Source: a virus. From it: 25,342 nt of DNA. Numbering within the stretch: position 1 is the stretch's first letter; each line of letters starts with the position of its first letter. Positions 10,549 through 25,342 of the stretch are shown here, one piece after another. The stretch lies in IMG/VR virus record IMGVR_UViG_3300033149_007541, positions 1 to 25,342 of that record; one strand, 5' to 3'. The translations under genes were made by a program, and so were the position numbers. The notes under the pieces were generated by a model, which saw only the letters and a program-made list of their open reading frames with translations, was not told the origin of the DNA and searched no databases.

Positions 10549-11475
10549 ATGGCCCGTTGGACTTACCAGCAATACTCTGGTGGTCCGCGAACGGTGCAGG
10601 CCGTCGGTGACTGGCGTGACGTAATCAAGATTCTGGCGCGGAAGGAAACGCCGCTCTGGACGCTGATTACTCACGAAGAGACCACCGACATAAATCCTCA
10701 CTCTCTGGAGGACACGCTGAGCCCGCCTGACCTGACGAACTACCATGCCCAGGAGGTTGCGGCTCCTGCTGCGGTGGACACGCGAAGAACGACTGTACAG
10801 AACTGGACGCAGATTCTGTACAAGACCGTTCAGGTGACCGACACGCAGGAGGCGGTCAAGCAGTACGGCATGGTCAGCGAGTCGAAGTACCAGAAGGGCA
10901 AGAAGCTCATCGAGTTGCTTCGCGACATCGAGAGCTTCCTCGTGTCCGACCAGGGCGCACAGGCTCCCGACTACGACCACGCCAATACGGGCAGGATGGG
11001 CGGCGTAGGTGCCATCATAACGAGCCATGTGGACACTTTGTTCACGCAGGCTCGGTACGACCAGATGATGGGCGACATCTACGCCGGCGGCGGGAGCCCG
11101 ACCATCGCTTTCATGGACCGTACCAGGAAGGCGATAGTGAACTCGTGGACCACTGCGCCCACCCGTTACACTTCGGACATCCAGCGCCTCGAAAAGGAGG
11201 TGCTGGTGTACCACTCGGACATCGGCCCGGACGTGCAGATGCGCTATCACTGGGCCATGCCGCAGAACGTGGCGGGCGCACCGCCGGTGTTCCTGCTTCT
11301 CGATCCGTCGCTGTGGGTAATCAAGGTGTTGCTTCCCGTGAAGTACACCGTTGTGCCCAACGATGGTTCGGGCGTGCGGGGATACTGGAAGACGGAACTC
11401 TCGTGGCTTGGGCTTGCCGAGCGGGGCAACGGGATGTTCGTTGAGACCGTAAGTTCCAGCTCAAGCTCTGCCTGA
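10549..11475 (+). CDS. Major capsid protein, DUF5309 / SU10-type
   Basis: This is a 308-residue HK97-fold capsid subunit. The segments KETPLWTLI (32-40), TTVQNWTQILYKTVQVTDTQ (81-100), YGMVSESKYQKGKKLIELLR (106-125) and DIESFLVSDQG follow the DUF5309 pattern of ETP...R-x-x-x-NYTQI...V-S-x-T...E...K-x-x-x-EL-x-RDIE. The protein ends in six consecutive serines and an alanine, a tail that is not part of the fold. Serine-rich tracts also occur in the nozzle and Cys-rich genes downstream. AAGGAGAAGG precedes the ATG. A strong GC hairpin follows the gene. Confidence 0.88.
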   Translation: MARWTYQQYSGGPRTVQAVGDWRDVIKILARKETPLWTLITHEETTDINPHSLEDTLSPPDLTNYHAQEVAAPAAVDTRRTTVQNWTQILYKTVQVTDTQEAVKQYGMVSESKYQKGKKLIELLRDIESFLVSDQGAQAPDYDHANTGRMGGVGAIITSHVDTLFTQARYDQMMGDIYAGGGSPTIAFMDRTRKAIVNSWTTAPTRYTSDIQRLEKEVLVYHSDIGPDVQMRYHWAMPQNVAGAPPVFLLLDPSLWVIKVLLPVKYTVVPNDGSGVRGYWKTELSWLGLAERGNGMFVETVSSSSSSA

Positions 11476-13132: not shown

Positions 13133-14629
13133 GTGAGGTTGCAACGCATAGGCTGGCCGTTCCCGTTCGCGGGGATAGTAACCGAGCTCTCCGAGGCGCA
13201 CATGCCGCCGCAGGGGCTGGTCACCCTGGAGAACATGTATTATGCCAGCCCGCAGACGCTTCGGACGCGCGGTGGATTCGAGCGTATCGCGCGCAGCGCG
13301 AGCATGGGTCCGGTTCGCGTGATGTACTACTGGGACCACAATGATAGCCTGTTCTGGGCGGACGACGAAGGGCATCTGTGGGTGACCGCCATGGGCGGTG
13401 GCGGCTACAGCGGCCCCGTAGCGGGCGTACAGAACAAGGTTACCTCCATAGTAAGCCATGCCAACTACGACGAGCCCCCGAAGCTGTACGTGTGCGAGGA
13501 GCGCGGTGCTACGGGCGACCATACCGTTCACGTCTACGACGAAGCGTTGCATGCCGTCAAGCCGCTGGAAGGCACGAACGTGCCGACGGTGACGCGGCTC
13601 TGGAGCTGGCTGGGCAGGTTGTGGGGAACCTGCGACGACAGACATCCGGACCGCGTATATCATTCCGAGGCGGGCAACGCGGCGAACTGGGGAGGGATAT
13701 TCGGACAGGGCGGGGCATTCGACGTCGCAGCGGGGCGGGAAGGCAAGATCGTTGACTGGCTCATCTACCGTCGGAATCTTTACATTCTGAAGCAACGAGC
13801 GGTCTTCGTGCTGCTGGGGAACAACCCGCTGAACTTTCGCTTGCAGCCGTTCGAGCGCTGTGTGGGCACCGTACTCGGAGGAGCGGCGGATTGCAGCGCC
13901 GGTGCCTTATATCTGACCGACAACGGAATCTGGACGCTCGGCAAGGGATACGGCGGTGAGGGCCACAATCTTGCCCGCTGGCCTTCCGGCAGCCTGATTC
14001 CTCTGCTCCCCAGTGCACAGGCCGACTATGCGTTCGGGCTCAATGCATACCTTGTCGTCAGCCCGCAGGCGCGATGGGAGTGCCTGACGGCGCTTCGAAG
14101 GCCAAGCGTTTCGTCTTCGTCGTCTTCGTCTTCGTCGAGCGCCCAGCCCGAATACACCAGGCCTGTGATATGGCTGTCTTCGCACGACAATCGCCCGGAC
14201 GCCTGGGCTGTCTTTACGACGCCGGAGCCGTTCTACTCGGTCTACCAGGGAGAAGACCTTTTGTTCGGCGGCAACGGCGCGGTATACCGCTACAGTTCGG
14301 ACGGCCTGAGAGACGACGGGGAGGAGTACGCATGCGGCTTCAGGACGGCGAGCTGGAATCTGGGAACCAGCAAGCCGCGGAAGGAGTTGATGCTCGTTGA
14401 GGGTAATCTGAACGCGTCGGACGGCGGCAGAGTCCGGCTGAGACTGTACCGCGATGGTGAGACGACGCCGGTGTTTTCCGAGACGCTGGCCCCCGGTGAA
14501 CGGAACCTGCGGCGCTTCAACTTCAGCTGCGAGCGCCTGGCGGTGGAGCTCATTTACGAGCAGCTCGCACAGCCGTGCTGGTTTACTGACAAGTCGTTCT
14601 GGCTGAGCTTGGGAGCGGACGTGCTCTAA
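13133..14629 (+). CDS. Tail nozzle/hub-like protein (podovirus tail tube)
   Basis: The call gives 498 residues from a GTG at 13133 with GGAG nine bases upstream. The N-terminus (PFPFAGIVTELSEAHMPPQG, then NMYYASPQTLRTRGGFERI) has the pattern seen in nozzle proteins of short-tailed phages (FP-x-x-G...P...A...L-x-N...LR-x-R-x-G). Repeated beta segments with W and G (for example LWSWLGRLWGTCDDRHPDRV, RRNLYILKQRAVFVLLGNNP and LYLTDNGIWTLGKGYGGEGH) suggest a beta-propeller. Ten consecutive serines occupy residues 327-336. The adaptor gene precedes it and the Cys-rich gene follows with a TAATG overlap. The call is a structural inference. Confidence 0.68.
   Translation: MRLQRIGWPFPFAGIVTELSEAHMPPQGLVTLENMYYASPQTLRTRGGFERIARSASMGPVRVMYYWDHNDSLFWADDEGHLWVTAMGGGGYSGPVAGVQNKVTSIVSHANYDEPPKLYVCEERGATGDHTVHVYDEALHAVKPLEGTNVPTVTRLWSWLGRLWGTCDDRHPDRVYHSEAGNAANWGGIFGQGGAFDVAAGREGKIVDWLIYRRNLYILKQRAVFVLLGNNPLNFRLQPFERCVGTVLGGAADCSAGALYLTDNGIWTLGKGYGGEGHNLARWPSGSLIPLLPSAQADYAFGLNAYLVVSPQARWECLTALRRPSVSSSSSSSSSSAQPEYTRPVIWLSSHDNRPDAWAVFTTPEPFYSVYQGEDLLFGGNGAVYRYSSDGLRDDGEEYACGFRTASWNLGTSKPRKELMLVEGNLNASDGGRVRLRLYRDGETTPVFSETLAPGERNLRRFNFSCERLAVELIYEQLAQPCWFTDKSFWLSLGADVL
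14111..14140 (+). repeat. Ten-serine codon tract inside the nozzle gene
   Basis: The tract uses TCG and TCT codons in a near-repeat and ends in AGC. It inserts a flexible serine segment between two beta-rich parts of the protein. Comparable serine stretches occur at the end of the capsid protein and in the next gene. Confidence 0.8.
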
Positions 14630-15972
14630 TGGACCTGGTGTGGTGCGAATATCGCTGGCCTTTCTGGCAATGGGAGGAGCCCGACCCGGTTGGCGCCGAC
14701 GGTCTGCCCGAAGGTTGGGAATACGGGCCGGACGGGCCGATGCCCATACCCAGCAGCTCGTCCTCGCCTGCACCCGAACCCGAGCCTTCTCCCGGCGGTT
14801 CCCCGGGTCCGTCTCCAGGTCCTTCGTCGGAAGGCCCATCCGTCTCTTCTTCGCTTGCACCCTGTCCGGCGGACTGCTCGGACTGTCAACCCACACTGTT
14901 CGTGTATATCCCCCCGGACTCCCCGGTGCATGCGGGATGTTACCCGGTATGGCGCGTTGGTGAAAGTTGTGAGTGGCAAAGGAATGAGGGCAGCTTTGAT
15001 ATCACGCTCTACTGTGACAGCGAGCGATGCAGATGGACGGTGAGGTTGCGGGACTATGAGAATCGGTACGTATGCTGGTGGCAGCATCCGACGCCGGTGC
15101 ACGAATGCCCATGGCTGGACGATTATCCGTTCCGGACTTCATGGTCGGAGAGTGGCACCGCTCCATGCCAAGCACCATGCCCATCCGTGCGCGTATCAAG
15201 CATTCCGTGCCCCTTGAGTGACGACCTATGCGGAACCTGCGCCGACCGGTACTGCGTCGAGATTGATGGGGTGACCTGCGCCGATGACCCGCTCCACGAT
15301 GCTGATCCCAATGGCCTCTATACCGTCTCACGTCTGGATGTGGATGAGGATATCTGTTTCTGGGAATCGGTCCCTACGAACGAGCGGCCGTACAGAGTGC
15401 AGCTTTTCCGCCTATTCTCGTACTGGGCGATTCTGCTGACTGGGCCGGGCGTGCCTCACTGCTTCTGGTACCGGCCGAATGACGAGCCTTCCGGGGGCTC
15501 ATCTTCGCCGGGGCCGACGGACCTTTGCCCGCCGACGGGACTGGATTGGTGGTCACCCGTCCTGGACCAGGACGAATGCTGCGGCTCGGCGCGGGTGCTT
15601 CACGACGGCGGCTGCGGCACGGGTGGGCCAAGTTCACCAGGCGCAGCAAGTTCAGCAGGGACGAGCTCACCAGGCGCAGCAAGTTCACCAGCAGCGAGTT
15701 CGCCGGCCCCAGCTGCCGACTGTTGCTACGACTGTTACTGGGTCTACGACACCGGCTCGCCGCCGGGCACCGTGCAGCTCGACTGCGACGGCGGCGGTGT
15801 CTGCGCGCCGAGGGAGGGGTGCTCCGAGGCGACGGGCACGTGCACCTACAACTTGACGGGTAACAGGCAGGTTGCCGCGCCGCCAACCTGCGAGATGGCG
15901 CCCTGCACCGGCGACCTGGGCACCGGCGACTGGCACCGGTACGACTACGCGAGCGACAACTGCGCGGTCTAG
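14629..15972 (+). CDS. Cys-rich modular protein with Ser/Pro linkers (candidate virion surface protein)
   Basis: This is a 447-residue protein with 33 cysteines, far above phage norms. After a Trp-rich start and a Ser/Pro/Glu/Gly linker (residues about 40-76) come two similar modules at about 79-175 and 201-285. Each begins with a C-x-x-C cluster, then Y/F-V, a G-x-Y or GCY turn, a C-x-W or C-F-W segment, an I-x-L or V-x-L strand and a W-x-V-x-L or W-A-I-L-L strand. A second Ser/Ala/Pro/Gly linker (about 331-362) leads to a third Cys-dense end (ADCCYDCYWVYDTGSPPGTV). The start overlaps the previous stop (TAATG). It is probably a disulfide-stabilised tail or decoration protein; no named family is recognised. 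Confidence 0.7.
   Translation: MDLVWCEYRWPFWQWEEPDPVGADGLPEGWEYGPDGPMPIPSSSSSPAPEPEPSPGGSPGPSPGPSSEGPSVSSSLAPCPADCSDCQPTLFVYIPPDSPVHAGCYPVWRVGESCEWQRNEGSFDITLYCDSERCRWTVRLRDYENRYVCWWQHPTPVHECPWLDDYPFRTSWSESGTAPCQAPCPSVRVSSIPCPLSDDLCGTCADRYCVEIDGVTCADDPLHDADPNGLYTVSRLDVDEDICFWESVPTNERPYRVQLFRLFSYWAILLTGPGVPHCFWYRPNDEPSGGSSSPGPTDLCPPTGLDWWSPVLDQDECCGSARVLHDGGCGTGGPSSPGAASSAGTSSPGAASSPAASSPAPAADCCYDCYWVYDTGSPPGTVQLDCDGGGVCAPREGCSEATGTCTYNLTGNRQVAAPPTCEMAPCTGDLGTGDWHRYDYASDNCAV
15634..15687 (+). repeat. Direct repeat in the Ser/Ala/Pro linker
   Basis: A 21-base unit at 15634-15654 recurs without change at 15667-15687, an offset of 33 bases. It encodes SPGAASS-type linker sequence. Near-copies continue to about 15714. 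Such repeats allow the linker length to vary by recombination or slippage. Confidence 0.8.
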
Positions 15973-16112: not shown

Positions 16113-16418
16113 GTGGAGGACAGCCCCGAAATGCTCCGGCTCGCCATCAATGCGCTGAAAGGCCGCATCATGGGCGGGGACTGCCCGCGCTACCAGCGAC
16201 ACAACCCGTTCGACGTGCGGGCGACCTTCGCGAAGCTGGCCTCGCTGGTGGACCGGACGGAGCTGCGCGAGGTTTACCGCGAGGCGCTGGACGCCTGGGC
16301 GCGCATCCGCCCGGAGGACGGCGGGCATGACGAGCTGACCGTAGCGGAGAAGGCCGAGCAGATAGCCACGGACCTGAGCCTGGAGAAGGAGCTTGAGGAT
16401 TGGGCGAAACTGGCCTAG
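16113..16418 (+). CDS. Hypothetical helical protein preceding the glycosyltransferase
   Basis: The call gives 101 residues from GTG at 16113 (AGAGG four bases upstream); ATG at 16131 with GGAGGAC nine bases upstream is equally possible, and the frame is open to 16059. The sequence is helical and charged (MLRLAINALKGRIMGGDCPR, then FAKLASLVDRTELREVYREA and KAEQIATDLSLEKELEDWAK). There are no membrane segments. The next gene overlaps its end by 19 bases. The function is unknown. Confidence 0.55.
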   Translation: MEDSPEMLRLAINALKGRIMGGDCPRYQRHNPFDVRATFAKLASLVDRTELREVYREALDAWARIRPEDGGHDELTVAEKAEQIATDLSLEKELEDWAKLA

Positions 16419-17668
16419 TGCTGGAAGCAGTGAAACGACGCCGGGACCGCAGAGCAGCCCGTACGGGCTTTTGCCGCTGGGCGAGGCCCCTGCCAGAGAG
16501 CGGCAACTGCAAGGGATGCCGTCGGCGCATTGAATGCCGGCACCCCGAAGTCGGACCGGTTATCGTCTCACAGCGGCATTGCAGGCAAATCTGCACACTT
16601 TGGGAAGACAGTGCGACGCTACGGGAGGCCACGGCGACCACACAGCGCGAGTTGCTGGTCGCGCCGCTCTCAGACGAGTTTCAACGGGACGCGGCGAAGC
16701 CAGTGTCGAAGGTGCGCCTGCGATGCTTTCTGTCGCCAGGTGACATCTTGATGTTGACGGCAGCCGTGAGAGACCTGCACAAGACGTTTCCGGGACGCTT
16801 CGTAACTGCCGTCCAAACGACCGCACCCGATATCTGGGAGAACAATCCGTACGTGACGCAACTGAGCGGCACGGATGGTCATGTGCGGACGGTAACCTGT
16901 CACTATCCACTGATACACGAGCCGTTCCAACGGACATGTCACTTCGTGCGTGGCTTTCACGAGTACCTCAGCAGGCAGCTGGGTGTGGCCATACCGGTTA
17001 CAGAGTACCGGGGCGATGTCCATTTGACTGGGGCTGAAAAGGAATGGCCTGCTGATTTGCTGGGAGATGCGCTTGCAACGGGGACGCGGTACTGGCTGGT
17101 CTTCGCGGGTGGAAAGCACGATTACACGGCGAAGTGGTGGCCGAGCGAATACTACCAGGCCGTAGTTGATAGCTTCCGGGAGCGTATTCAGTTCGTTCAA
17201 TGTGGCGGCAAGGGCGACTGGCATCCGCCGCTGGACGGCGTCGTGAACCTTGTCGGAAAGACAACGATAAGAGACGTGCTTCGGTTGGTATACAGCGCTG
17301 ACGGCGTGCTGTGCCCCGTCACTTTCGCGATGCATGCGGCGGCTGCCCTTCCGCGAGAGGACGGTTCGCTGCGTCCTTGTGTTGTGATTTCGGGGGCGCG
17401 GGAGCCGGCGAACTGGGAGCAGTACCCGGGCCACCAGTTTCTTCAGACCGTCGGCTGCCTGCCGTGTGCCAAGTCAGGCGCATGCTGGAGGTCGAGATGC
17501 CAGAAAGTGGGTGACGGTGACGAAAAGGACCGAAGCAACTTGTGCTCGGAACCCGTGGAGATGGGCGCGGCTGTAAGCTATCCGAAGTGCATGGTGATGA
17601 TAAAGCCGACAGACGTTGTCCGAGCAATAGAGAGGTACTATGAGTCCGGCATTCTCCACTATCTGTGA
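16400..17668 (+). CDS. GT9-like glycosyltransferase (heptosyltransferase superfamily)
   Basis: This is a 422-residue protein. SPGDILMLTAAVRDLHKTFP (112-131) and the following TAPDIWENNPYV match the N-terminal Rossmann half of ADP-heptose:LPS heptosyltransferases. The KWWPSEYYQAVVD segment (245-257), FVQCGG (265-270) and the glycine/hydrophobic stretch around VLCPVTFAMHAAAAL (303-317) match the donor-binding half. Such enzymes move an activated sugar to an acceptor. The N-terminus (residues 25-65) and the end (353-397: CLPC, ACW, C, LC, KC) add Cys clusters that could bind metal. The start is TTG at 16400 with AAGGAG eight bases upstream; GTG at 16418 is an alternative. The donor sugar is unknown. 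Confidence 0.75.
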   Translation: MGETGLVLEAVKRRRDRRAARTGFCRWARPLPESGNCKGCRRRIECRHPEVGPVIVSQRHCRQICTLWEDSATLREATATTQRELLVAPLSDEFQRDAAKPVSKVRLRCFLSPGDILMLTAAVRDLHKTFPGRFVTAVQTTAPDIWENNPYVTQLSGTDGHVRTVTCHYPLIHEPFQRTCHFVRGFHEYLSRQLGVAIPVTEYRGDVHLTGAEKEWPADLLGDALATGTRYWLVFAGGKHDYTAKWWPSEYYQAVVDSFRERIQFVQCGGKGDWHPPLDGVVNLVGKTTIRDVLRLVYSADGVLCPVTFAMHAAAALPREDGSLRPCVVISGAREPANWEQYPGHQFLQTVGCLPCAKSGACWRSRCQKVGDGDEKDRSNLCSEPVEMGAAVSYPKCMVMIKPTDVVRAIERYYESGILHYL

Positions 17669-18338
17669 CACAGAGAGTGTCCGTACACTGAATGTCAAAG
17701 TCGGCGGTCTCGTTCTGGAGGTGCGGCCAGGCACGTGGGATTCCACGCTGGGACGCATCATCATCGAGAATGACGAATATCAGATACGTTGCCTGAAGAA
17801 AGCGGGCAAAGACATACGGCGCATCGTTGACATCGGGGCGCATATAGGATGCTTCGCGCGACTTGCTTCAGAGCTGTGGCCTGATGCCGAGGTGCTGGCG
17901 TACGAGCCTGATGAGGAGAACTTCGAGCTTCTGAGGCGGAACATGCGCGGTCACAAGGCCAGGCTTGTGAGGGCCGCCGTGGTGGGCCGCGAAGGGGAGC
18001 TTGTGCCCTTCGAGTGCTACAGAGACAGGGGGGCGCCGGTGAATACAGGCGCGGGGAGGGTGGCCGAAACAGGCACGCACTACGTGAAGGCGGTGAGGCC
18101 GCAATGGGGAAGGGTAGACGTTCTCAAGCTCGATTGCGAGGGCCTGGAGGGAGAGATTCTGGAATACGCAGCGGCGCACGGGATGCTCGACGAGGTTGGC
18201 TGGGTGAGAGGAGAATGGCACGGGGCTGAGAATAGGCGGCGAGTCGTTGCCGCGCTTTCGGACACGCATGAGGTGCACACCTCGGCGAAAGTGCCGCAGC
18301 AGGGGTACTTCATAGCGCATTCCAGGAGGCGGCATTGA
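17640..18338 (+). CDS. FkbM-family methyltransferase
   Basis: This 232-residue SAM-dependent methyltransferase shows motif I IVDIGAHIGCFARLA (62-76), an acidic end of strand 2 (AYEPDEENFELLRRN, 87-101) and the FkbM-typical LKLDCEGLEGEIL (162-174). FkbM enzymes O-methylate sugars or polyketides. GAGAGG lies four bases before the ATG, and the gene overlaps the glycosyltransferase by 29 bases. A role in methylating a glycan made by its neighbours is inferred from context. Length and motif order are normal for the family. Confidence 0.85.
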   Translation: MSPAFSTICDTESVRTLNVKVGGLVLEVRPGTWDSTLGRIIIENDEYQIRCLKKAGKDIRRIVDIGAHIGCFARLASELWPDAEVLAYEPDEENFELLRRNMRGHKARLVRAAVVGREGELVPFECYRDRGAPVNTGAGRVAETGTHYVKAVRPQWGRVDVLKLDCEGLEGEILEYAAAHGMLDEVGWVRGEWHGAENRRRVVAALSDTHEVHTSAKVPQQGYFIAHSRRRH

Positions 18339-19546
18339 TGGCGAAAGGCTGCGGGCGAGCACAGAGAGGCTACTACGCAATGCCGTGGGTTCGGGCAAGC
18401 CTGGCGGGGCGAGTCGCGGCAATCGCGCAAGTTGTGCCGCCCGGCTCGCGGGTCGCGGACATAGGCTGCAACGACGGAACCGTGGGGATGGAACTGCTGA
18501 AGTCAGGGCTCGCGCAGGAGGTCTACGGCTACGACCTGGAGGACATCAGGCGGCCAGAGGCCCGCAGAGACAAGCGTTTCAAGTTTGAGGCGATTGACCT
18601 GAACAGGAGCCTGCCGCGCCTCAGCGACGTGGACGTGGTGCTGCTGCTTTCGGTTCTTCATCACTTATGGCCCGACGGGACGCCTCTGAGGCAGGCCCAG
18701 CTTTTAGAACTGGCGCTGAAGCAAGCGCACACCGTGATCTGTGATATGGGCTCAATGACGGAACCCCACACTCACAGCTGGAAGCGACGGCAGAGGCAGT
18801 TCTGGTCTTCCGACATTGCGATGGCAAAGGACCTTTTCCAGGAGGCACGGTACGCGTACCCGATTCACTGCTATCCTGCGCAGGGCGGGCGCCGTCTCAT
18901 GTGGAAACTGGGGGGACACAAGAAACGAGATGCTGACTATACCGTCATCGCTATGTATCGGCGGACGGTCGGCAGGGTGGGACAATGGTTGTACCGAGTC
19001 ACATCGTTGCAAGAGGCGCCCGTCCCGTGGGGGAGGAAAGCAGGCAGATTGTGTCCATTTGTCGTCTTCTACTGGCTCCGAGACGCTTCGACAGGCGAGG
19101 AGTTCTGGGCAAAACGGTACGGGAAGCGAAGCTACGCCGAGCTGGAATACCGCGTGGCACAGAGCGTGGCCCGTGCGCCGCACCTGGCGCTCGCGCCGAT
19201 AGCCGTGCACCAGGATTTCGGGCTTGTATATCCATTCTACGAGCAAGTACGCGCGACTGCGGCGCTGAACTACTCGCGGCGTCACTTGATGGAGCCAAGG
19301 CATAGAGAGGAATGCGAGCGGTTTGCCGCCACGCGCGTGAACGCCGCCGGGGTACGGCGGTGGCCGTTGGGGCGAATCTGCGACTTCCAGGCTGTCGCCA
19401 CAAAGTACGGCTTGATGTTCTACGATTTTGCACCCAACGATGAAGCAATAGTCCAGGCAACCAAAGAGGCGGAGGCTGTCAATGAAGTGTCCCCGGACGC
19501 AAGAGAGCTTGCCGGAGCAGGCTCACATGCTGGCAGAGGCATCTGA
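18338..19546 (+). CDS. SAM methyltransferase with extra C-terminal domain
   Basis: This is a 402-residue protein. The N-terminal half is a class I methyltransferase, with RVADIGCNDGTVGMELL (38-54), VYGYDLEDI (62-70) and the DVDVVLLLSVLHHLW motif (97-111). The half after about residue 210 is a second domain. FWAKRYGKRSYAELEYRV (256-273), LALAPIAVHQDFGLVYPFYE and YGLMFYDFAPND (357-368) recall the Lys, Glu and hinge region of kinase-like folds, but no HxD catalytic loop is seen, so this is weak. A methyltransferase-kinase order is known in WbdD, which ends O-antigen chains. ATG at 18338 has AGGAGG eight bases upstream and overlaps the FkbM stop (TGATG). Confidence 0.75.
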   Translation: MAKGCGRAQRGYYAMPWVRASLAGRVAAIAQVVPPGSRVADIGCNDGTVGMELLKSGLAQEVYGYDLEDIRRPEARRDKRFKFEAIDLNRSLPRLSDVDVVLLLSVLHHLWPDGTPLRQAQLLELALKQAHTVICDMGSMTEPHTHSWKRRQRQFWSSDIAMAKDLFQEARYAYPIHCYPAQGGRRLMWKLGGHKKRDADYTVIAMYRRTVGRVGQWLYRVTSLQEAPVPWGRKAGRLCPFVVFYWLRDASTGEEFWAKRYGKRSYAELEYRVAQSVARAPHLALAPIAVHQDFGLVYPFYEQVRATAALNYSRRHLMEPRHREECERFAATRVNAAGVRRWPLGRICDFQAVATKYGLMFYDFAPNDEAIVQATKEAEAVNEVSPDARELAGAGSHAGRGI

Positions 19547-20303
19547 AAGGCTCTTCATTGTTCTGGATGCGTGCCGGTACGATGAATTTGCCCGAATCTG
19601 CTCAGGGTCCCAATGCGTACGTTCCTGCGGCTCCTGTACCGGCGACTGGCTAAGGGCGTTGATGGGTTGGCTTAGAACACGAAAACCGGTGTACTTCACT
19701 GCGAATCCCGTTCCGAGCAATGTTCTGAAGAAGGCTCAGGCTGTTCGCACAGTGGACTTGTGGCGTCGGCACTGGGGTCTTCACTCGGACGCGTTGATTC
19801 CCTCTGTGCACCCGGAATCGGTCAACGCAGTAGTGGTAAACAAATGGGCTGAGCTAAAGGATAAGGTTGTCGTGGTTCATTATTTACAGCCGCACATGCC
19901 GTACATTGGCGGCTCCGGCCTTGGCTTCGTGAACTGGGGACCCAACTGCGGTGGGACGTTGGGAGATGCCCTGCGCACCTATCCGACGCTGCACAGTGCA
20001 GTGAAGCGGGCCGAACTCAGCTGGAAGCGTGTTCGAGAGGCATATCGGGCAAATCTGCGCCTGGCCTGGCGGGCCGCCTATAATCTTGTCCACTCTGTCA
20101 GGGTTCCAGCGATAGTCACTTCAGACCATGGGGAGTTTCTGGGTGAGAACGGCGAGTTTGGGCATCCAGGCGGCATTCACGACGCGCGATTGCGTCGCTA
20201 CGCCAATCATAACATATTGCGCGAAGTGCCGTATCTCAAGCTGGAACCTGAGGCGCGTGTGCAAACTGTTGAACAGAGACTTGCGGCGCTTGGTTACAGG
20301 TAG
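19482..20303 (+). CDS. Alkaline-phosphatase/sulfatase-superfamily protein
   Basis: This is a 273-residue protein. LFIVLDACRYDEF (24-36) carries the first metal aspartate (29). VVHYLQPHMPYIG (131-143) and AIVTSDHGEFLGENGEFGHP (210-229) carry the His and the Asp-His metal ligands (215, 216) of the alkaline-phosphatase superfamily. A CGSCTGDW segment near residue 53 may hold the nucleophile Thr. This superfamily includes sulfatases and phosphoglycerol or phosphoethanolamine transferases, so it may remove or add a charged group on a glycan. There is no signal peptide or membrane anchor. GGAGG lies six bases before the ATG, and it overlaps the previous gene by 65 bases. Confidence 0.75.
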   Translation: MKCPRTQESLPEQAHMLAEASERLFIVLDACRYDEFARICSGSQCVRSCGSCTGDWLRALMGWLRTRKPVYFTANPVPSNVLKKAQAVRTVDLWRRHWGLHSDALIPSVHPESVNAVVVNKWAELKDKVVVVHYLQPHMPYIGGSGLGFVNWGPNCGGTLGDALRTYPTLHSAVKRAELSWKRVREAYRANLRLAWRAAYNLVHSVRVPAIVTSDHGEFLGENGEFGHPGGIHDARLRRYANHNILREVPYLKLEPEARVQTVEQRLAALGYR

Positions 20304-20326
20304 CTAAACGAAGGAGCGTTGAGGGA

Positions 20327-21502
20327 ATGACGCACGGCGTAGCACAGGAGTTCGAGCGGGCTGCAAAGTGCAAGCCCAACTATCCCGGAGGATTTGAGGG
20401 CAGGGGCGTGGTGATCTGTGCCGGTGGCCTGCGACTCTTTAGCTGCGCCTACGTTTGTGTGCGGATGCTGCGCGAGGCCGGCTGCACGCTGCCCGTACAG
20501 TTCTGGTATTTGGGCAAGAAGGAGATGACGCCGGCCATGGAGGCCATCGTGGAACCGTATAACGTCACTTGCGTAGACGCATATGAGGTGCGCAAGAAGC
20601 ACCCGGCCCGGATTCTGCGCGGCTGGGAAGTAAAGCCCTATTCCATCATCTGGTCGCCATTCAAGCAGGTGCTGTATCTGGACGCAGACAACATGCCGGT
20701 ACGTGACCCGACCTTTCTGTTCGAGACGAAGCAGTTTGCCGAGACGGGCGCGATATTCTGGCCCGACTTCGGCAGGCTCGGCCCCGAACGAGACATCTGG
20801 AGGATATGCGGCGTCCAGTATCGCGACGAGCCTGAGTTTGAGAGCGGGCAGATGGTGATAGACAAGGAACGCTGCTGGGCGGCCCTGCACCTGACGATGT
20901 GGATGAACGAGCATTCCGATTTCTTCTACAAGCACATTCATGGTGACAAAGACACTTTCCACATGGCGTGGCGGAAGCTGGAACAACCGTACTCGATGGT
21001 GTCCACGCCGATAAGGGCGCTACCCGGCGTGATGTGCCAGCACGATTTCGACGGGGGGCGGCTTTTCCAGCATCGCAACCTGCGGAAGTGGAACGTATTC
21101 GGGGACAATCCTGAGGTGCCGGGCTTTGAGGGCGAGGACAGATGTTTGGAGTTCCTGGCGGAGTTGCGTGGGTTGCTTAGCCCACAAGGCTACGGGCCGT
21201 ACGACGCGAGCAGGGCGAACGAGGTACAGAAACGCGCTGCGGAGGAGCTATGCAATCGCCGGTGGAGCTATCGCCGCGTGGGCATCGGGGACAGGCCCAT
21301 GAAGTTCAGCCTCGACGGTACATTCATCGAGGGCGGCGCGGGCTGCGAAGAACAATGGAACCTGTCCGCCGATGGAGAGACGCTGATCGTGTCCGGTAGA
21401 GGCATGGTAACGTTCACCGCTCACAGGGACGGCCCGGACCGCTGGTCCGGGCAGTGGCTCGTACACGAAAAGAACCTGGTAGAGCTGATTGCCATTGACT
21501 GA
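20327..21502 (+). CDS. GT71-like glycosyltransferase (Mnn1-type) with beta-rich C-terminal domain
   Basis: This is a 391-residue protein. GRGVVICAGG (25-34), LPVQFWYLGKKE (55-66), GWEVKPYSIIWSPFKQVLYL (99-118) with the metal-binding DAD at 119-121, PEFESGQMVIDK (169-180) and HGDKDTF (205-211) follow the alpha-mannosyltransferase Mnn1/GT71 pattern. The donor is probably a nucleotide-activated hexose. Residues about 310-391 form a separate beta-rich domain (RPMKFSLDGTFIEGGAGCEE, then WSGQWLVHEKNLVEL) also found, as I recall, attached to other sugar enzymes. GGAG and GAGGGA lie before the ATG. It is the last gene of the block. Confidence 0.78.
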   Translation: MTHGVAQEFERAAKCKPNYPGGFEGRGVVICAGGLRLFSCAYVCVRMLREAGCTLPVQFWYLGKKEMTPAMEAIVEPYNVTCVDAYEVRKKHPARILRGWEVKPYSIIWSPFKQVLYLDADNMPVRDPTFLFETKQFAETGAIFWPDFGRLGPERDIWRICGVQYRDEPEFESGQMVIDKERCWAALHLTMWMNEHSDFFYKHIHGDKDTFHMAWRKLEQPYSMVSTPIRALPGVMCQHDFDGGRLFQHRNLRKWNVFGDNPEVPGFEGEDRCLEFLAELRGLLSPQGYGPYDASRANEVQKRAAEELCNRRWSYRRVGIGDRPMKFSLDGTFIEGGAGCEEQWNLSADGETLIVSGRGMVTFTAHRDGPDRWSGQWLVHEKNLVELIAID

Positions 21503-21519: not shown

Positions 21520-21768
21520 ATGGACGTGGCGACGGGATTGATGATGAGCGCGGCGGCATTGTTCTCGGAGGTGGAAAGCCCGCTGGGCTACGCCAAGGTG
21601 ATGGGCGAGGGGGAGGACGCTACTCGGCAGGACTACGTGGACAGGGTGGCGGGGGCATTCAGGGCGCTGGAAGAAGCGATGGCCGCGAGGCCAGCCGCGG
21701 ATCGCCAGGCCATATACATGGCGCTGCGCAAGGGAATATTACTCACTTCCGGACAGGAGGGACCATAA
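21520..21768 (+). CDS. Small hypothetical protein
   Basis: The call gives 82 residues, Ala-rich and helical (MMSAAALFSEVESPLGYAKV, then RVAGAFRALEEAMAARPAAD). GGAG lies eleven bases before the ATG, a loose spacing. The TAA stop is immediately followed by the next ATG. It begins the last run of probable internal virion genes. No family is recognised. Confidence 0.6.
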   Translation: MDVATGLMMSAAALFSEVESPLGYAKVMGEGEDATRQDYVDRVAGAFRALEEAMAARPAADRQAIYMALRKGILLTSGQEGP

Positions 21769-22329
21769 ATGCCAGGATTGACGAACACGTTCGTTCCCGT
21801 GAACCTTTCGACAATGGGGCCGGGAGAATCACTTTCGGCAAAGCTCTGGGGGCCGCAACCGGTCCGGGTCCCGTACCGGGGGCCGGGCTATCTGGGGCTG
21901 GCGCGACAGCTTTTCCGGCGCGGGATGGCGGAGTTGTCCGGCTACTTCGGCAGCCGGGGAATGCTGTCATCCTCGTACATGCAGCAGAGGGCCGCGCAGT
22001 TGTGGTCGGATGCACAGCTCAGGGCGTGGCAGATGTATCAGCAGAAACGGCAGGTGGACCTGGGTTGGGCGCAGTTTGAGGAGCGCAGAAGGGCGCGCTA
22101 TCAAGCCTGGCGCGCGCTCATGGGCAGGTTGAGCATGGAGTCCGCCCTGGCGCTCCAAAGGAACATAGCCGCTGCAATGCCGCAGTTCTGGGTGCCGCAG
22201 CAGCCGTGGCAGATGCCGCAACCTGAAATCGGCGAGCCTGAGGCCGAGCCGGAAACTGAACCGGAACAGGAGTGGCTGCCCGGAAACTGGGTGCCAGGAA
22301 CCTATGTGGAGTATCCGTATCCGCGATGA
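21769..22329 (+). CDS. Hypothetical Gln/Arg-rich virion protein
   Basis: The call gives 186 residues, with GGAGGGA before the ATG. The N-terminal 45 residues are loosely structured and Pro/Gly-rich. A long helical region follows (SSSYMQQRAAQLWSDAQLRA, then MYQQKRQVDLGWAQFEERRR), and then a Pro/Glu-rich end (EIGEPEAEPETEPEQEWLPG). The composition resembles internal or ejected proteins of short-tailed phages, a guess from position and helicity. Confidence 0.6.
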   Translation: MPGLTNTFVPVNLSTMGPGESLSAKLWGPQPVRVPYRGPGYLGLARQLFRRGMAELSGYFGSRGMLSSSYMQQRAAQLWSDAQLRAWQMYQQKRQVDLGWAQFEERRRARYQAWRALMGRLSMESALALQRNIAAAMPQFWVPQQPWQMPQPEIGEPEAEPETEPEQEWLPGNWVPGTYVEYPYPR

Positions 22330-22766
22330 GCACGCGAGAGAAAGAAGAGACGCCGGGCCGAAAAACAGTCGCCCAGGTCCGGGCGCTCGGCGAAGCGCTT
22401 GGCTTGCATCAAGCGTTCATCCGCGACGTGGCCGCGAGAGGGCAGCCCGCCATCATAGACAGGGCCGACGTTACCGATGAAACGGGGGCACTGGGCGTGG
22501 TGCTTTTTACTCTCCAGCAACTCGGCTACTGGCTTCAGGACCGGGCGGCACAGGGACCGAAGCCGGCCAGACCGGGCGAGTTGGTGGAAGCGGTCGGCTT
22601 GATTGCGCGGCAACTGAACGTCAATCCAGGGCTGCTGGTCAAGGTCGTCGGCGCGGCACATGAGGTGTATACGCAGGCGCTGGAGGTCCTGATAGCGAAG
22701 GAGAGGGGAGCATATGAGGCAGAGGATGCCGACAATACAGGAGGAAGCGGCGGCCCAGCGAGCTGA
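22326..22766 (+). CDS. Hypothetical helical protein
   Basis: The call gives 146 residues from an ATG that overlaps the previous stop (ATGA). It is predicted mostly helical (TVAQVRALGEALGLHQAFIR, then LVEAVGLIARQLNVNPGLLV). The upstream open frame to 22272 has no site. The start of the next gene overlaps its end by 53 bases. By position it is another probable internal virion or assembly protein; no motif identifies it. Confidence 0.6.
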   Translation: MSTREKEETPGRKTVAQVRALGEALGLHQAFIRDVAARGQPAIIDRADVTDETGALGVVLFTLQQLGYWLQDRAAQGPKPARPGELVEAVGLIARQLNVNPGLLVKVVGAAHEVYTQALEVLIAKERGAYEAEDADNTGGSGGPAS

Positions 22767-23919
22767 CCTGGAGCGACTGCGCTTGATGCAGCAGGAATCG
22801 CTTTCCATGTTGGAGGATGCGCTCGCGTTGCGGGCGCAGCATAACACGCAATGGGCGCTGTGGAAGATGGACGCGGACTACAAGGCGGCCCTGGCAAGGG
22901 AAAGGGCGAGGCGCCAGCGCGAGCTCACGGTGCAGCGTGAGAGGCGCGAGACGCAGCTGTTGCTTCAGCGGGCCGGGTTTGAGCAGGAAGCAGAACAGGC
23001 CCAAGCCGAGCGCCAATGGGAAGTGCTTCGGGCGGAACTGGACAAGCTCGACGTGGAGCAGAGGCGTGAGCGACTGGGCGGCCTGGCCGAAGCCTTCCCG
23101 GAGGAGCGCCAGCAGCGTGCATGGCGTGCAGCGGTTGAGGCCTCCATCAAAGCCGAGCCCGACGAGGTCCGGCGCATGTACGAACTGCTGAGCCCAAGCG
23201 AAGACCACGGTGTACTGCGGCAAGTGCTGGGAGGTTGGGGCTTCGTCGGGCGGGAAGGCGTCCAGATGATTCCGGGTACGCAACCGCGAACTCTCGAACA
23301 ACTTGCGGCCCAGAATCCATACCAGTTTGCGCAAACAATGGCGACGGTCAAGGGCAAAATAAGCATGATGCCCGATGACTACGGCGTATCAAGCGAGGAA
23401 TGGTCCAGGATGAGCGAGGATGAAAAGGACCTGTTCGTGCGCAACTGGATGAGGAAACAGCTATTTCCTCAAGCGCCGACCCCCTCCGAAGGGACGCAAG
23501 CCATAGCGGCTGGCGGCACGGCACCAGCGTCAGGTCAGTCGTACGAAGCGTTCGAGCGGGCGCCCGCACCTGGGGCTCAACCCGAAAGACCCACCTCGGC
23601 AAAGCCCACGGTGGAAATCGGCGCCGAGGGCACAGAGGCCCTGGAAAGGGCGGGGAAGGAGCCAGAGGAGACACTTGAAGACATTTTGCAACGTGGCAGA
23701 CTCGTCCACATACTCATGCGGCATAACCCGTGGATCGCTATGCCTGGCGGGGAGCGCGTACGGTTCAAAAGCGCGCCAATGATGAGTCGCGAGAACTACA
23801 TGAGCAGCCTCGAAACATTGGCACGTATCGCGAATGGACAGATAGATGCCGCACCGGAGGATATGAGAAAAGCGCGTGAGTGGCTGGAGAAGAACGGCTA
23901 CTGGGAGCTGCTGAGGTAA
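22714..23919 (+). CDS. Coiled-coil internal virion/ejection protein candidate
   Basis: This is a 401-residue protein. Residues about 10-145 form a long, charged coiled coil (EEAAAQRADLERLRLMQQES, then RERARRQRELTVQRERRETQ and QRRERLGGLAEAFPEERQQR). A folded-looking part follows (MYELLSPSEDHGVLRQVLGG, then PQTLEQLAAQNPYQF-like segments). An Ala/Pro/Glu linker and a helical end (ENYMSSLETLARIANGQIDA) complete it. Long coiled coils at this place in a podovirus-like genome are typical of proteins injected with the DNA. GGAGAGGGG lies before the ATG. The function is inferred. Confidence 0.65.
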   Translation: MRQRMPTIQEEAAAQRADLERLRLMQQESLSMLEDALALRAQHNTQWALWKMDADYKAALARERARRQRELTVQRERRETQLLLQRAGFEQEAEQAQAERQWEVLRAELDKLDVEQRRERLGGLAEAFPEERQQRAWRAAVEASIKAEPDEVRRMYELLSPSEDHGVLRQVLGGWGFVGREGVQMIPGTQPRTLEQLAAQNPYQFAQTMATVKGKISMMPDDYGVSSEEWSRMSEDEKDLFVRNWMRKQLFPQAPTPSEGTQAIAAGGTAPASGQSYEAFERAPAPGAQPERPTSAKPTVEIGAEGTEALERAGKEPEETLEDILQRGRLVHILMRHNPWIAMPGGERVRFKSAPMMSRENYMSSLETLARIANGQIDAAPEDMRKAREWLEKNGYWELLR

Positions 23920-23934
23920 ATGGAGCACGGCGGA

Positions 23935-25342
23935 ATGGCCGACGTAGACACGATTATCGCGGGATTGGAAGGCAAGGCTGACCCGCAGGCGCTTGCGAAG
24001 GAAAAGTTGACATCCGCCCTAGCGGTACTCGAAGCGGAGCCGCGACCCGGTCTACCACGCTTCGAGTGGGAGCCAACCCGGGAAGATTACCTCTCGCTCG
24101 CGGGACGGGTAGCAGCGAAAAAACACTTTCTGGGCGGCTACCAGGAGGGCTGGCTCAAGGATGAGGAGGGGAGCCTGGCGAAGGGCGAGCTCGTCCTCCG
24201 CCGGCCTACGCCCGAAGAAGCAAAAACATTGCGGCGTTTTCACGTTGACTGGTACGACCGCCGCCCTGAGGCTGCAATACCTGAGCCCGCTGCACAGAGG
24301 CTGCTGCAAGCCTACCGGCTGTGGATCAATCCTTACGGCATGGCCCAGAACCTAGGCTATGGTCTCTCCGAGTTGCCGCCGATAGTCGTAGCGGCAGGTC
24401 TGATTCCAGGCGGTCGTCGGACGCTGCAAGAGCTTGCTTTCGAGGACCCGCACGTCGGCAGTTATCTGAAGGAGGGCACACGGGCGCTCGCTGGCGCGTT
24501 GGCTGAGATGGAGATTTGCAGCGGGCTATATCGCGCTGCGGGGTGGATAGGGGGCCGCGTCTGGCGGGCGACCGGTCTCGCCGGCAAAGTCAAGCCTCGC
24601 ATAGCAGCCGAGCTCTTGAAGCCGGTACGGCGGCTGAAGGGACTGGCGCGCGCGAAAACGCGAGCGGCGAATGCCGTCACGCGCTGGCTGCGCGCTGACA
24701 GGGCGGTCGGGACGCACGCGGCCAGGTTGATCGAAGCCGCTGACGATCTGGCGACGCAAGTCCTGGAACAAGGCGAAAGGGCCGCTGAATGGCTCGTGCC
24801 GCGCGCCGTGGCGTTAGGCGGGCGGCAGGCAGCGGGCGCTCTCAAAGGGCGGGCGCTGGGAGAAGTAGTGGGGCGCGTGGTACCCTGGGCGGAGGGCATG
24901 GACGAGGAAGAAGCGGCGGCATATCTCGCATCGTGGCAAAAGTGGGGGCCGATCATGGGCGCGTTCTTCGAGAGTGTCGCCTATGCGGACCGCGTCCGAA
25001 TCGCACATGCGATGAAGCGACGGGTCGCCGAGCATTTCGCTAGGGCGAGACAAGTTGCCCTCGGCGCAAAGGGTGCGGACGGTGTAGGAGTCAATGCCAC
25101 GGTGAAAAGACTGTATGCGGCGCAAAACATCGTCGAGGCGCAAATAGACGATGTATTGGCCGGCGTGCGCTATACCGTGCCGGGCGGCAAGCCGATGGCG
25201 CCGGAAGCTACGCCGCGCGCGGTGGCAAAACACGCATATCAAATAGCAGGGTGGGAACACGCAGACGAAGCCTACGCCCGCAGCGTTGCCGGTGCCCTTG
25301 CGAAAATGCGTGGCGGGGCGCAGCGGTTGACGCCTGAGGACT
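23935..25342 (+). CDS. Large hypothetical protein, 3' truncated (candidate internal virion protein)
   Basis: The frame is open to the right edge, with about 469 residues visible. ATG at 23935 has GGAG nine bases upstream; ATG at 23920, directly after the previous stop, is an alternative adding five residues. The sequence is Ala/Arg/Glu-rich and mostly helical (LEGKADPQALAKEKLTSALA, then RLLQAYRLWINPYGMAQNLG). A mildly hydrophobic stretch (SELPPIVVAAGLIPGG) and a WLVPRAVALGG segment are visible. It is probably much longer than shown. Its place last in the coiled-coil run suggests an injected protein; no motif is recognised. Confidence 0.6.
   Translation, partial: MADVDTIIAGLEGKADPQALAKEKLTSALAVLEAEPRPGLPRFEWEPTREDYLSLAGRVAAKKHFLGGYQEGWLKDEEGSLAKGELVLRRPTPEEAKTLRRFHVDWYDRRPEAAIPEPAAQRLLQAYRLWINPYGMAQNLGYGLSELPPIVVAAGLIPGGRRTLQELAFEDPHVGSYLKEGTRALAGALAEMEICSGLYRAAGWIGGRVWRATGLAGKVKPRIAAELLKPVRRLKGLARAKTRAANAVTRWLRADRAVGTHAARLIEAADDLATQVLEQGERAAEWLVPRAVALGGRQAAGALKGRALGEVVGRVVPWAEGMDEEEAAAYLASWQKWGPIMGAFFESVAYADRVRIAHAMKRRVAEHFARARQVALGAKGADGVGVNATVKRLYAAQNIVEAQIDDVLAGVRYTVPGGKPMAPEATPRAVAKHAYQIAGWEHADEAYARSVAGALAKMRGGAQRLTPED

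Follow-up and report, generated by a model that had tools for sequence, protein, structure and literature searches.

Virion glycosylation by phage-encoded enzymes and heptosyltransferases that modify serine by means of a metal finger are both already known. In the mycobacteriophages Che8 and Rita, phage glycosyltransferases have been linked to glycans on the major capsid protein (Freeman et al. 2023, cited in PMC11256854); the related phage Maravista carries its glycosylation genes near the 3' end of its genome. The heptosyltransferase TibC modifies serine but not threonine, and its residues Cys-339/342/358/370 bind iron in a finger of the C-lobe (PMC4358343). Here, we analysed a complete, linear IMG/VR record of 25,342 bp (IMGVR_UViG_3300033149_007541; hereafter the window), which is probably a phage genome fragment. 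Inside a podovirus-like late operon on its + strand, which we recognised by PHROGs and Pfam searches, lies a block of five genes for building and modifying glycans (16400-21502), a position in the structural operon that differs from the arrangement in Maravista. We consider it probable that this block encodes a protein O-glycosylation pathway that works in the host cytoplasm and targets serine tracts in proteins of the phage particle itself.

The five open reading frames (ORFs) are open on the + strand at the coordinates given by the original prediction, a reading of the bare sequence. Successive genes 1 to 4 overlap by 29, 4 and 65 bp, gene 5 follows after a gap of 23 bp, and gene 1 overlaps the gene before it by 19 bp. 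Since the ORFs encode 232-422 amino acids and four of them score above curated profile cutoffs, the block is not a chance pattern. Profile matches bear out the initial calls of a family 9 glycosyltransferase (GT9), an FkbM methyltransferase, a second methyltransferase and a family 71 glycosyltransferase (GT71). By reading the sequences, no evident membrane segment was seen in any of the five proteins. That the block decorates the virion, as had been predicted, is supported in outline by the co-occurrence of its GT9 family with poly-serine proteins, by serine runs in the window, by the virion genes nearby and by a likeness to TibC.

Gene 1 (16400-17668, +) encodes the GT9-type enzyme with a predicted heptosyltransferase fold, which we propose as initiating serine O-glycosyltransferase. 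It matches Pfam Glyco_transf_9 (PF01075; E 4.4e-6, 26.6 bits against a cutoff of 22), and Foldseek searches with its AF2 model (pLDDT 82.6) returned an uncharacterised Veillonella GT9, WaaF, WaaC and TibC within a few orders of magnitude of one another (E 1e-11 to 1e-8). Close to its C-terminus, the protein carries a four-cysteine finger (C356, C362, C382 and C397; 17465-17590, +). The four cysteines and a tryptophan (W363) were kept in 25/25 rows of a mixed GT9 alignment (A6, 25 rows), and the cysteines in 18/19 rows of a viral GT9 alignment (A3, 19 rows). The finger sits at a place in the chain equivalent to that of the iron-binding cysteines of TibC, and the window enzyme resembles the bacterial autotransporter heptosyltransferases TibC/AAH (BAHT; eLife 2014, PMC4358343) in its modelled GT-B heptosyltransferase fold and in a putative four-cysteine metal finger close to where the C-lobe ends. 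The spacing differs (Cx5C(7-25)C(9-14)C in the GT9 family versus Cx2Cx15Cx11C in TibC), and the GT9 finger is a putative metal binder. Homology to TibC by sequence was sought and not found; the agreement is limited to fold and finger, so that the modelled fold appears heptosyltransferase-like and the finger TibC-like, while membership in the TibC family is not reached by sequence. Further differences concern the substrates, which are beta-helix autotransporters for TibC/AAH and, as we propose, poly-serine tracts and virion proteins for the GT9 family, and the company of GT71, FkbM and other enzymes, which TibC/AAH lack. TibC acts in the cytoplasm with a partner substrate protein; for the GT9 family a partner is suggested by poly-serine neighbours only. 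A ring dodecamer and a beta-hairpin thumb are further marks of the TibC/AAH type.

A search with three query sequences placed the GT9 family at 23 loci in viruses and at 46 in genomes of bacteria and archaea. Its nearest cellular relatives belong to Planctomycetota (52-57% identity), and the family is rare, with 4 strong matches among 294 Planctomycetota genomes. Neither the 50,697 GenBank phage records nor plasmids yielded a match, and it is this search as a whole, not a comparison enzyme by enzyme, which sets the Che8 and Rita transferases apart from the window GT9. A literature search, in itself weak evidence, returned no paper on phage poly-serine glycosylation, on phage GT9 or on GT9 tied to poly-serine, GT71 or FkbM. 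The four-cysteine GT9 is an undescribed family. Two peculiarities of single members were noted in passing. The window enzyme is extended at its N-terminus by ~90 residues, among them several cysteines (16470-16600); this part looks zinc-finger-like, was modelled with low confidence and is missing from relatives, and the assigned start codon is tentative. At L016:8318-10594, a viral GT9 is split by an in-frame insertion of ~400 residues that ends in HN, next to a DFT/CKW motif, and that looks like an intein from its sequence.

What could such an enzyme modify? Around the GT9 genes, proteins with long serine homopolymers recur. As poly-serine ORFs we scored those with at least 8 consecutive serines. 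Up to 5 kb from GT9 there were 20 of them in 525 kb, versus 1 in 695 kb of control sequence taken from other regions of the same bacterial genomes (binomial p 5.8e-7, counted at ORF level). Counted per locus, the difference was 19/64 versus 1/38 (p 4e-4), and the sole control ORF sits on a GT9-bearing contig. Poly-serine proteins lie near GT9 in Schlesneria, Gemmataceae, Caballeronia, Chitinophagaceae, Bacteroidetes, Armatimonadetes and a Lokiarchaeota metagenome-assembled genome (MAG), and the longest run in those of phages counts 40 serines. In Chthoniobacter flavus Ellin428, a 180-amino-acid protein consisting mostly of serine (L063:9309-9851) is encoded directly upstream of GT9 (L063:9917-11026), a pair that offers a convenient test system. 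In several phages (L026:8301-9110, L023:8129-8956, L029:2808-3590, L143-L158), a gene that follows closely on the major capsid gene encodes a protein with a near-pure serine tail; these tails reach ~100 residues, with ~90 serines in some and runs of up to 40. As five or six different serine codons occur in the tracts, these are held by selection at the protein level and not by repeat slippage. We also compared phages that share a homologous capsid protein, using contigs that continue for 4 kb or more beyond the capsid gene: right behind that gene, 8/8 contigs with GT9 and 0/6 without it encode a serine-rich protein (p 6e-4 for a cautious count of 7 versus 6). Occurrence in host capsule clusters without structural neighbours had been named beforehand as evidence against virion decoration; the family does occur in bacterial genomes, yet often beside poly-serine proteins. 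A scan of the 294 Planctomycetota genomes for poly-serine with the degenerate codon WSN was discarded, as it also matches the other strand and other frames. Aside from these counts, in Planctomycetota L043, L071, L076 and L123 GT9 has very large proteins in its vicinity that look Rhs-like (judged by eye) or surface-like and contain serine runs of 8-13, and the Lokiarchaeota MAG contig (L079:16948-20686) combines a four-cysteine GT9 with two large poly-serine proteins 6-8 kb away; this contig may stem from an archaeon or a virus or may be misbinned.

In the window itself, only 3 of the 24 proteins contain a run of five or more serines, a number obtained in 0/3000 within-protein shuffles, and their genes, all of them late, lie upstream of GT9. 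The major capsid protein (10549-11475, +; phrog_1328 major head protein, 5.5e-38) ends in a run of six serines (11452-11469, +) encoded by AGT TCC AGC TCA AGC TCT. Inside the nozzle-like or stubby-tail virion protein (13133-14629, +; phrog_5107, 1.5e-10; phrog_3287 virion structural, 9.5e-4) lies a run of ten (14111-14140, +), and neither run was reached in 5000 shuffles (0/5000 each). The third candidate acceptor is a Cys-rich protein of 447 amino acids with 33 cysteines (14629-15972, +), whose longest serine run is five and which possesses two linkers, the first rich in serine and proline (PSSSSSPAPEPEP...SVSSS; 14749-14853, +) and the second rich in serine (SSPGAASSAGTSSPGAASSPAASSP; 15631-15705, +).

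Gene 5 (20327-21502, +) encodes a GT71 glycosyltransferase (Mannosyl_trans3, PF11051; E 5.6e-35, 121.5 bits against a cutoff of 22) with a DAD/N motif (D119-A-D121-N, invariant) and a C-terminal beta-rich domain; its PDB profile match is the alpha-1,3-mannosyltransferase MNT2 (E 0.0014). Fungal GT71 enzymes of the MNN1/MNT2 type, which have PF11051 in common with it, reside in the Golgi membrane and lengthen mannan or O-mannose chains, whereas the window type, found in bacteria or viruses, seems to be soluble and is often either joined to GT9 in one protein or encoded next to it. GenBank phages gave no match to it. Eight bacterial ORFs (seven loci, mostly in Verrucomicrobia) encode GT9 and GT71 as a single chain, and the two genes are neighbours in a further six distinct viral contigs and in a Phycisphaerales MAG. 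Likewise, GT9 and FkbM form one polypeptide in three planctomycete ORFs, and still other GT9 proteins carry a fused methyltransferase or GT2 domain. The fusions with GT71 and FkbM indicate that these three enzymes act together. The gene order had at first seemed unfamiliar as a whole; the GT9-GT71 pair turned out to recur elsewhere, while the full order of five was not found elsewhere among the loci compared. The beta-rich domain of GT71 spans ~80 residues (21230-21499 in the window), is duplicated in L002:9965-11467 and is seemingly also present on a neighbouring GT8-like protein of L002.

Between the two glycosyltransferases, gene 2 (17640-18338, +) encodes an FkbM-family methyltransferase above cutoffs (TIGR01444, E 3.5e-18, 66.4 bits versus 37.7; PF05050, E 7.7e-7, 29.8 versus 22.7; phrog_8156, E 4.3e-10). 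Gene 3 (18335-19546, +) encodes a second S-adenosylmethionine-dependent methyltransferase (PF12847, Methyltransf_18; E 9.1e-7, above cutoff) with a C-terminal domain (residues ~190-403); residues after ~150 match nothing in profile searches, and no relatives of the protein were found in our searches. A kinase-like nature of this domain, suspected from motifs, received no support from hhalign and only a sub-threshold PDB match (E 0.07). Gene 4 (19482-20303, +) had been predicted to belong to the alkaline-phosphatase superfamily; it has no sequence profile match, and fold and catalytic residues agree with the prediction. Foldseek searches (E 1e-5) with its AF2 model (pLDDT 74.7) returned phosphoethanolamine transferases of the MCR-1/Ept type best, followed by sulfatases and LtaS. 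As modelled, the protein has the alkaline-phosphatase-superfamily fold with its set of metal-ligand Asp and His residues. D29, T53, H138, D215, H216 and H228 are invariant in five sequences (gene 4 and four from three viral contigs), and T53 is the probable nucleophile; it opens the helix after the first metal ligand, which presumably fits a nucleophile for phospho-transfer or hydrolysis. Fold and catalytic Asp/Thr/His set are thus common to gene 4, EptA/MCR-1 and other enzymes of the superfamily, while gene 4 differs from EptA/MCR-1 by the lack of an evident membrane domain and of a profile-level sequence match. A sulfatase reading was rejected because gene 4 has no C/S-x-P-x-R formylglycine motif; its conserved cysteine lies within DACRxD. 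In L005 and L006, relatives of gene 4 adjoin glycosyltransferase-like genes (by eye).

Phage-encoded glycosyltransferases lie among structural genes in the window and likewise in its relatives. In the L026/L144 group, GT9 comes after the genes for the terminase large subunit (TerL), portal and major capsid protein; L003 has it between TerL and a portal-like gene, and the 527-kb phage L004 next to the genes for tail sheath and tube. In L012 and L019 it is preceded by collagen-like tail-fibre genes, and in L030 it lies downstream of a major capsid gene. In two phage types (L012 and L024/L025), HldE-type PfkB and cytidylyltransferase domains together with an epimerase are encoded near GT9, which suggests an ADP-heptose-like donor. 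An HldE in every cluster beside GT9, considered at one stage, proved wrong; the corresponding genes of L023 and L030 encode methyltransferases. A large sugar cassette precedes a portal-like gene in the 165-kb phage L002 (L002:184-13752) and comprises a short-chain dehydrogenase/reductase, a dehydroquinate-synthase-like protein, a sialyltransferase-like protein, an SIS isomerase, a NeuA-like protein with a cupin, GT32-like and GT8-like proteins, GT71 and an aminotransferase, all labelled by reading translations and the SIS isomerase also by a sub-cutoff Pfam match.

From these data we infer the acceptor serines, the donor sugar, the order of the steps and the glycan on virions as follows. The four-cysteine GT9 would place the first sugar, most likely heptose from host ADP-heptose, on serines in the tracts of the capsid, nozzle-like and Cys-rich proteins. 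The chain would then be extended by GT71, a retaining enzyme of the GT-A type, and O-methylated by FkbM and the second methyltransferase, before the alkaline-phosphatase-like enzyme would add or remove a phosphate-linked group. Capsid and tail would end up with a brush of glycans, which might keep proteases away from the disordered tracts, alter adsorption or serve as a shield.

But why should these enzymes act on the virion and not on the surface of the host? The block could remodel the core of the lipopolysaccharide (LPS) or another envelope glycan, e.g. to block superinfection, with its place in the late operon being incidental. The best-known GT9 enzymes are indeed LPS heptosyltransferases, WaaC and WaaF share Glyco_transf_9 and the fold with the window enzyme, gene 4 resembles lipid A phosphoethanolamine transferases, and in L016 none of the tested genes around GT9-GT71 is structural. 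However, the acceptor of WaaC and WaaF is a lipid and to our knowledge both lack the cysteine finger, lipid A phosphoethanolamine transferases are membrane anchored, unlike anything evident in the block, and GT9 lies among head or tail genes in several unrelated phages. As remodelling of the host surface would also leave the link to poly-serine proteins unexplained, we regard it as unlikely. Still less likely appears a mobile glycan island that was passively inserted into the late operon and makes a small glycoconjugate or polysaccharide with no protein acceptor. The content of the cassettes does differ among phages (L002, L003, L012, L026), as in exchangeable islands, but GT9 and poly-serine recur together in bacteria, phages and one archaeal MAG, and the fusions indicate that GT9, GT71 and FkbM act together.

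A narrower alternative accepts the link between GT9 and poly-serine and confines modification in the window to a single acceptor, most likely the Cys-rich protein as a spike or fibre, with the runs in capsid and nozzle as unmodified spacers. Its gene is the nearest serine-rich one, 428 bp upstream of GT9, with two serine-rich linkers, and in other phages the main tract resides on one protein. On the other hand, the runs in capsid and nozzle are also far beyond those of shuffled sequences, and some phages (L026, L018) have two or more tract proteins, so that we treat a single acceptor as a tentative possibility.

Several observations weigh against O-glycosylation of the phage's own virion proteins. 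Plain GT9 enzymes rank slightly above TibC as structural matches of the GT9 model, WaaF is the sole significant PDB match of the GT9 profile, and a weak one (E 5e-5), and the PDB chains of TibC were not matched by A3 or A6 at E 10. About 70% of the GT9 loci (45/64) have no ORF with the strict serine run within 5 kb, for which truncated contigs and ORF calling account in part only. The serine runs of the window are short (5, 6 and 10) compared to 12-40 in most other systems. In the capsid-matched comparison, the phages with GT9 are also closer relatives by capsid and some of those without are alike, so that the pattern may reflect one evolutionary gain. All phage members of the family come from uncultivated phages. 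Moreover, the original prediction of a complete set of enzymes was overstated: the five enzymes stand, while the C-terminal domain of the second methyltransferase has no assignment and the window contains no nucleotide-sugar synthesis genes and would therefore rely on its host for the donor.

Beyond the window, the evidence for and against seems to us evenly balanced for a more general proposal, namely a widespread and undescribed poly-serine O-glycosylation system of phages, bacteria and perhaps archaea, in which a metal-finger GT9 recognises serine homopolymers and GT71, FkbM and others coat them with a heptose-based methylated glycan, forming brushes on the capsids and tails of phages. If true, glycosylation of phage particles, known from few phages, would gain a mechanism and a predictable acceptor motif, and could be forecast from sequence by looking for a four-cysteine GT9 first and a serine tract next. 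It would also explain the recurrence of poly-serine in uncultured phages and beside GT9 genes in Planctomycetota and Verrucomicrobiota. The idea is testable in Chthoniobacter flavus and Caballeronia telluris, named isolates with the pair of GT9 and serine tract, and the GT9-GT71 and GT9-FkbM fusions represent ready-made enzymes.

The operon around the block fits a phage of podovirus type. On the + strand, TerL (phrog_2, 3e-35) is followed by an SU10-like portal, the major head protein, an adaptor, the nozzle-like protein, the Cys-rich protein and then the block, and PHROGs and Pfam back the predicted virion genes upstream from TerL to the nozzle-like protein. The coiled-coil internal proteins predicted downstream were not confirmed, as the genes at 21520-25342 gave no informative match in profile searches. 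Searching IMG/VR with capsid and terminase revealed no close relatives of the phage; TerL relatives in Planctomycetota MAGs (31-36%) were of no help in finding any, and Rfam and tRNA scans of the window detected nothing. At the left end, a serine recombinase is encoded on the opposite strand (740-1729, -; Resolvase PF00239, 1.5e-27, plus a Recombinase domain), and the phage may therefore be temperate.

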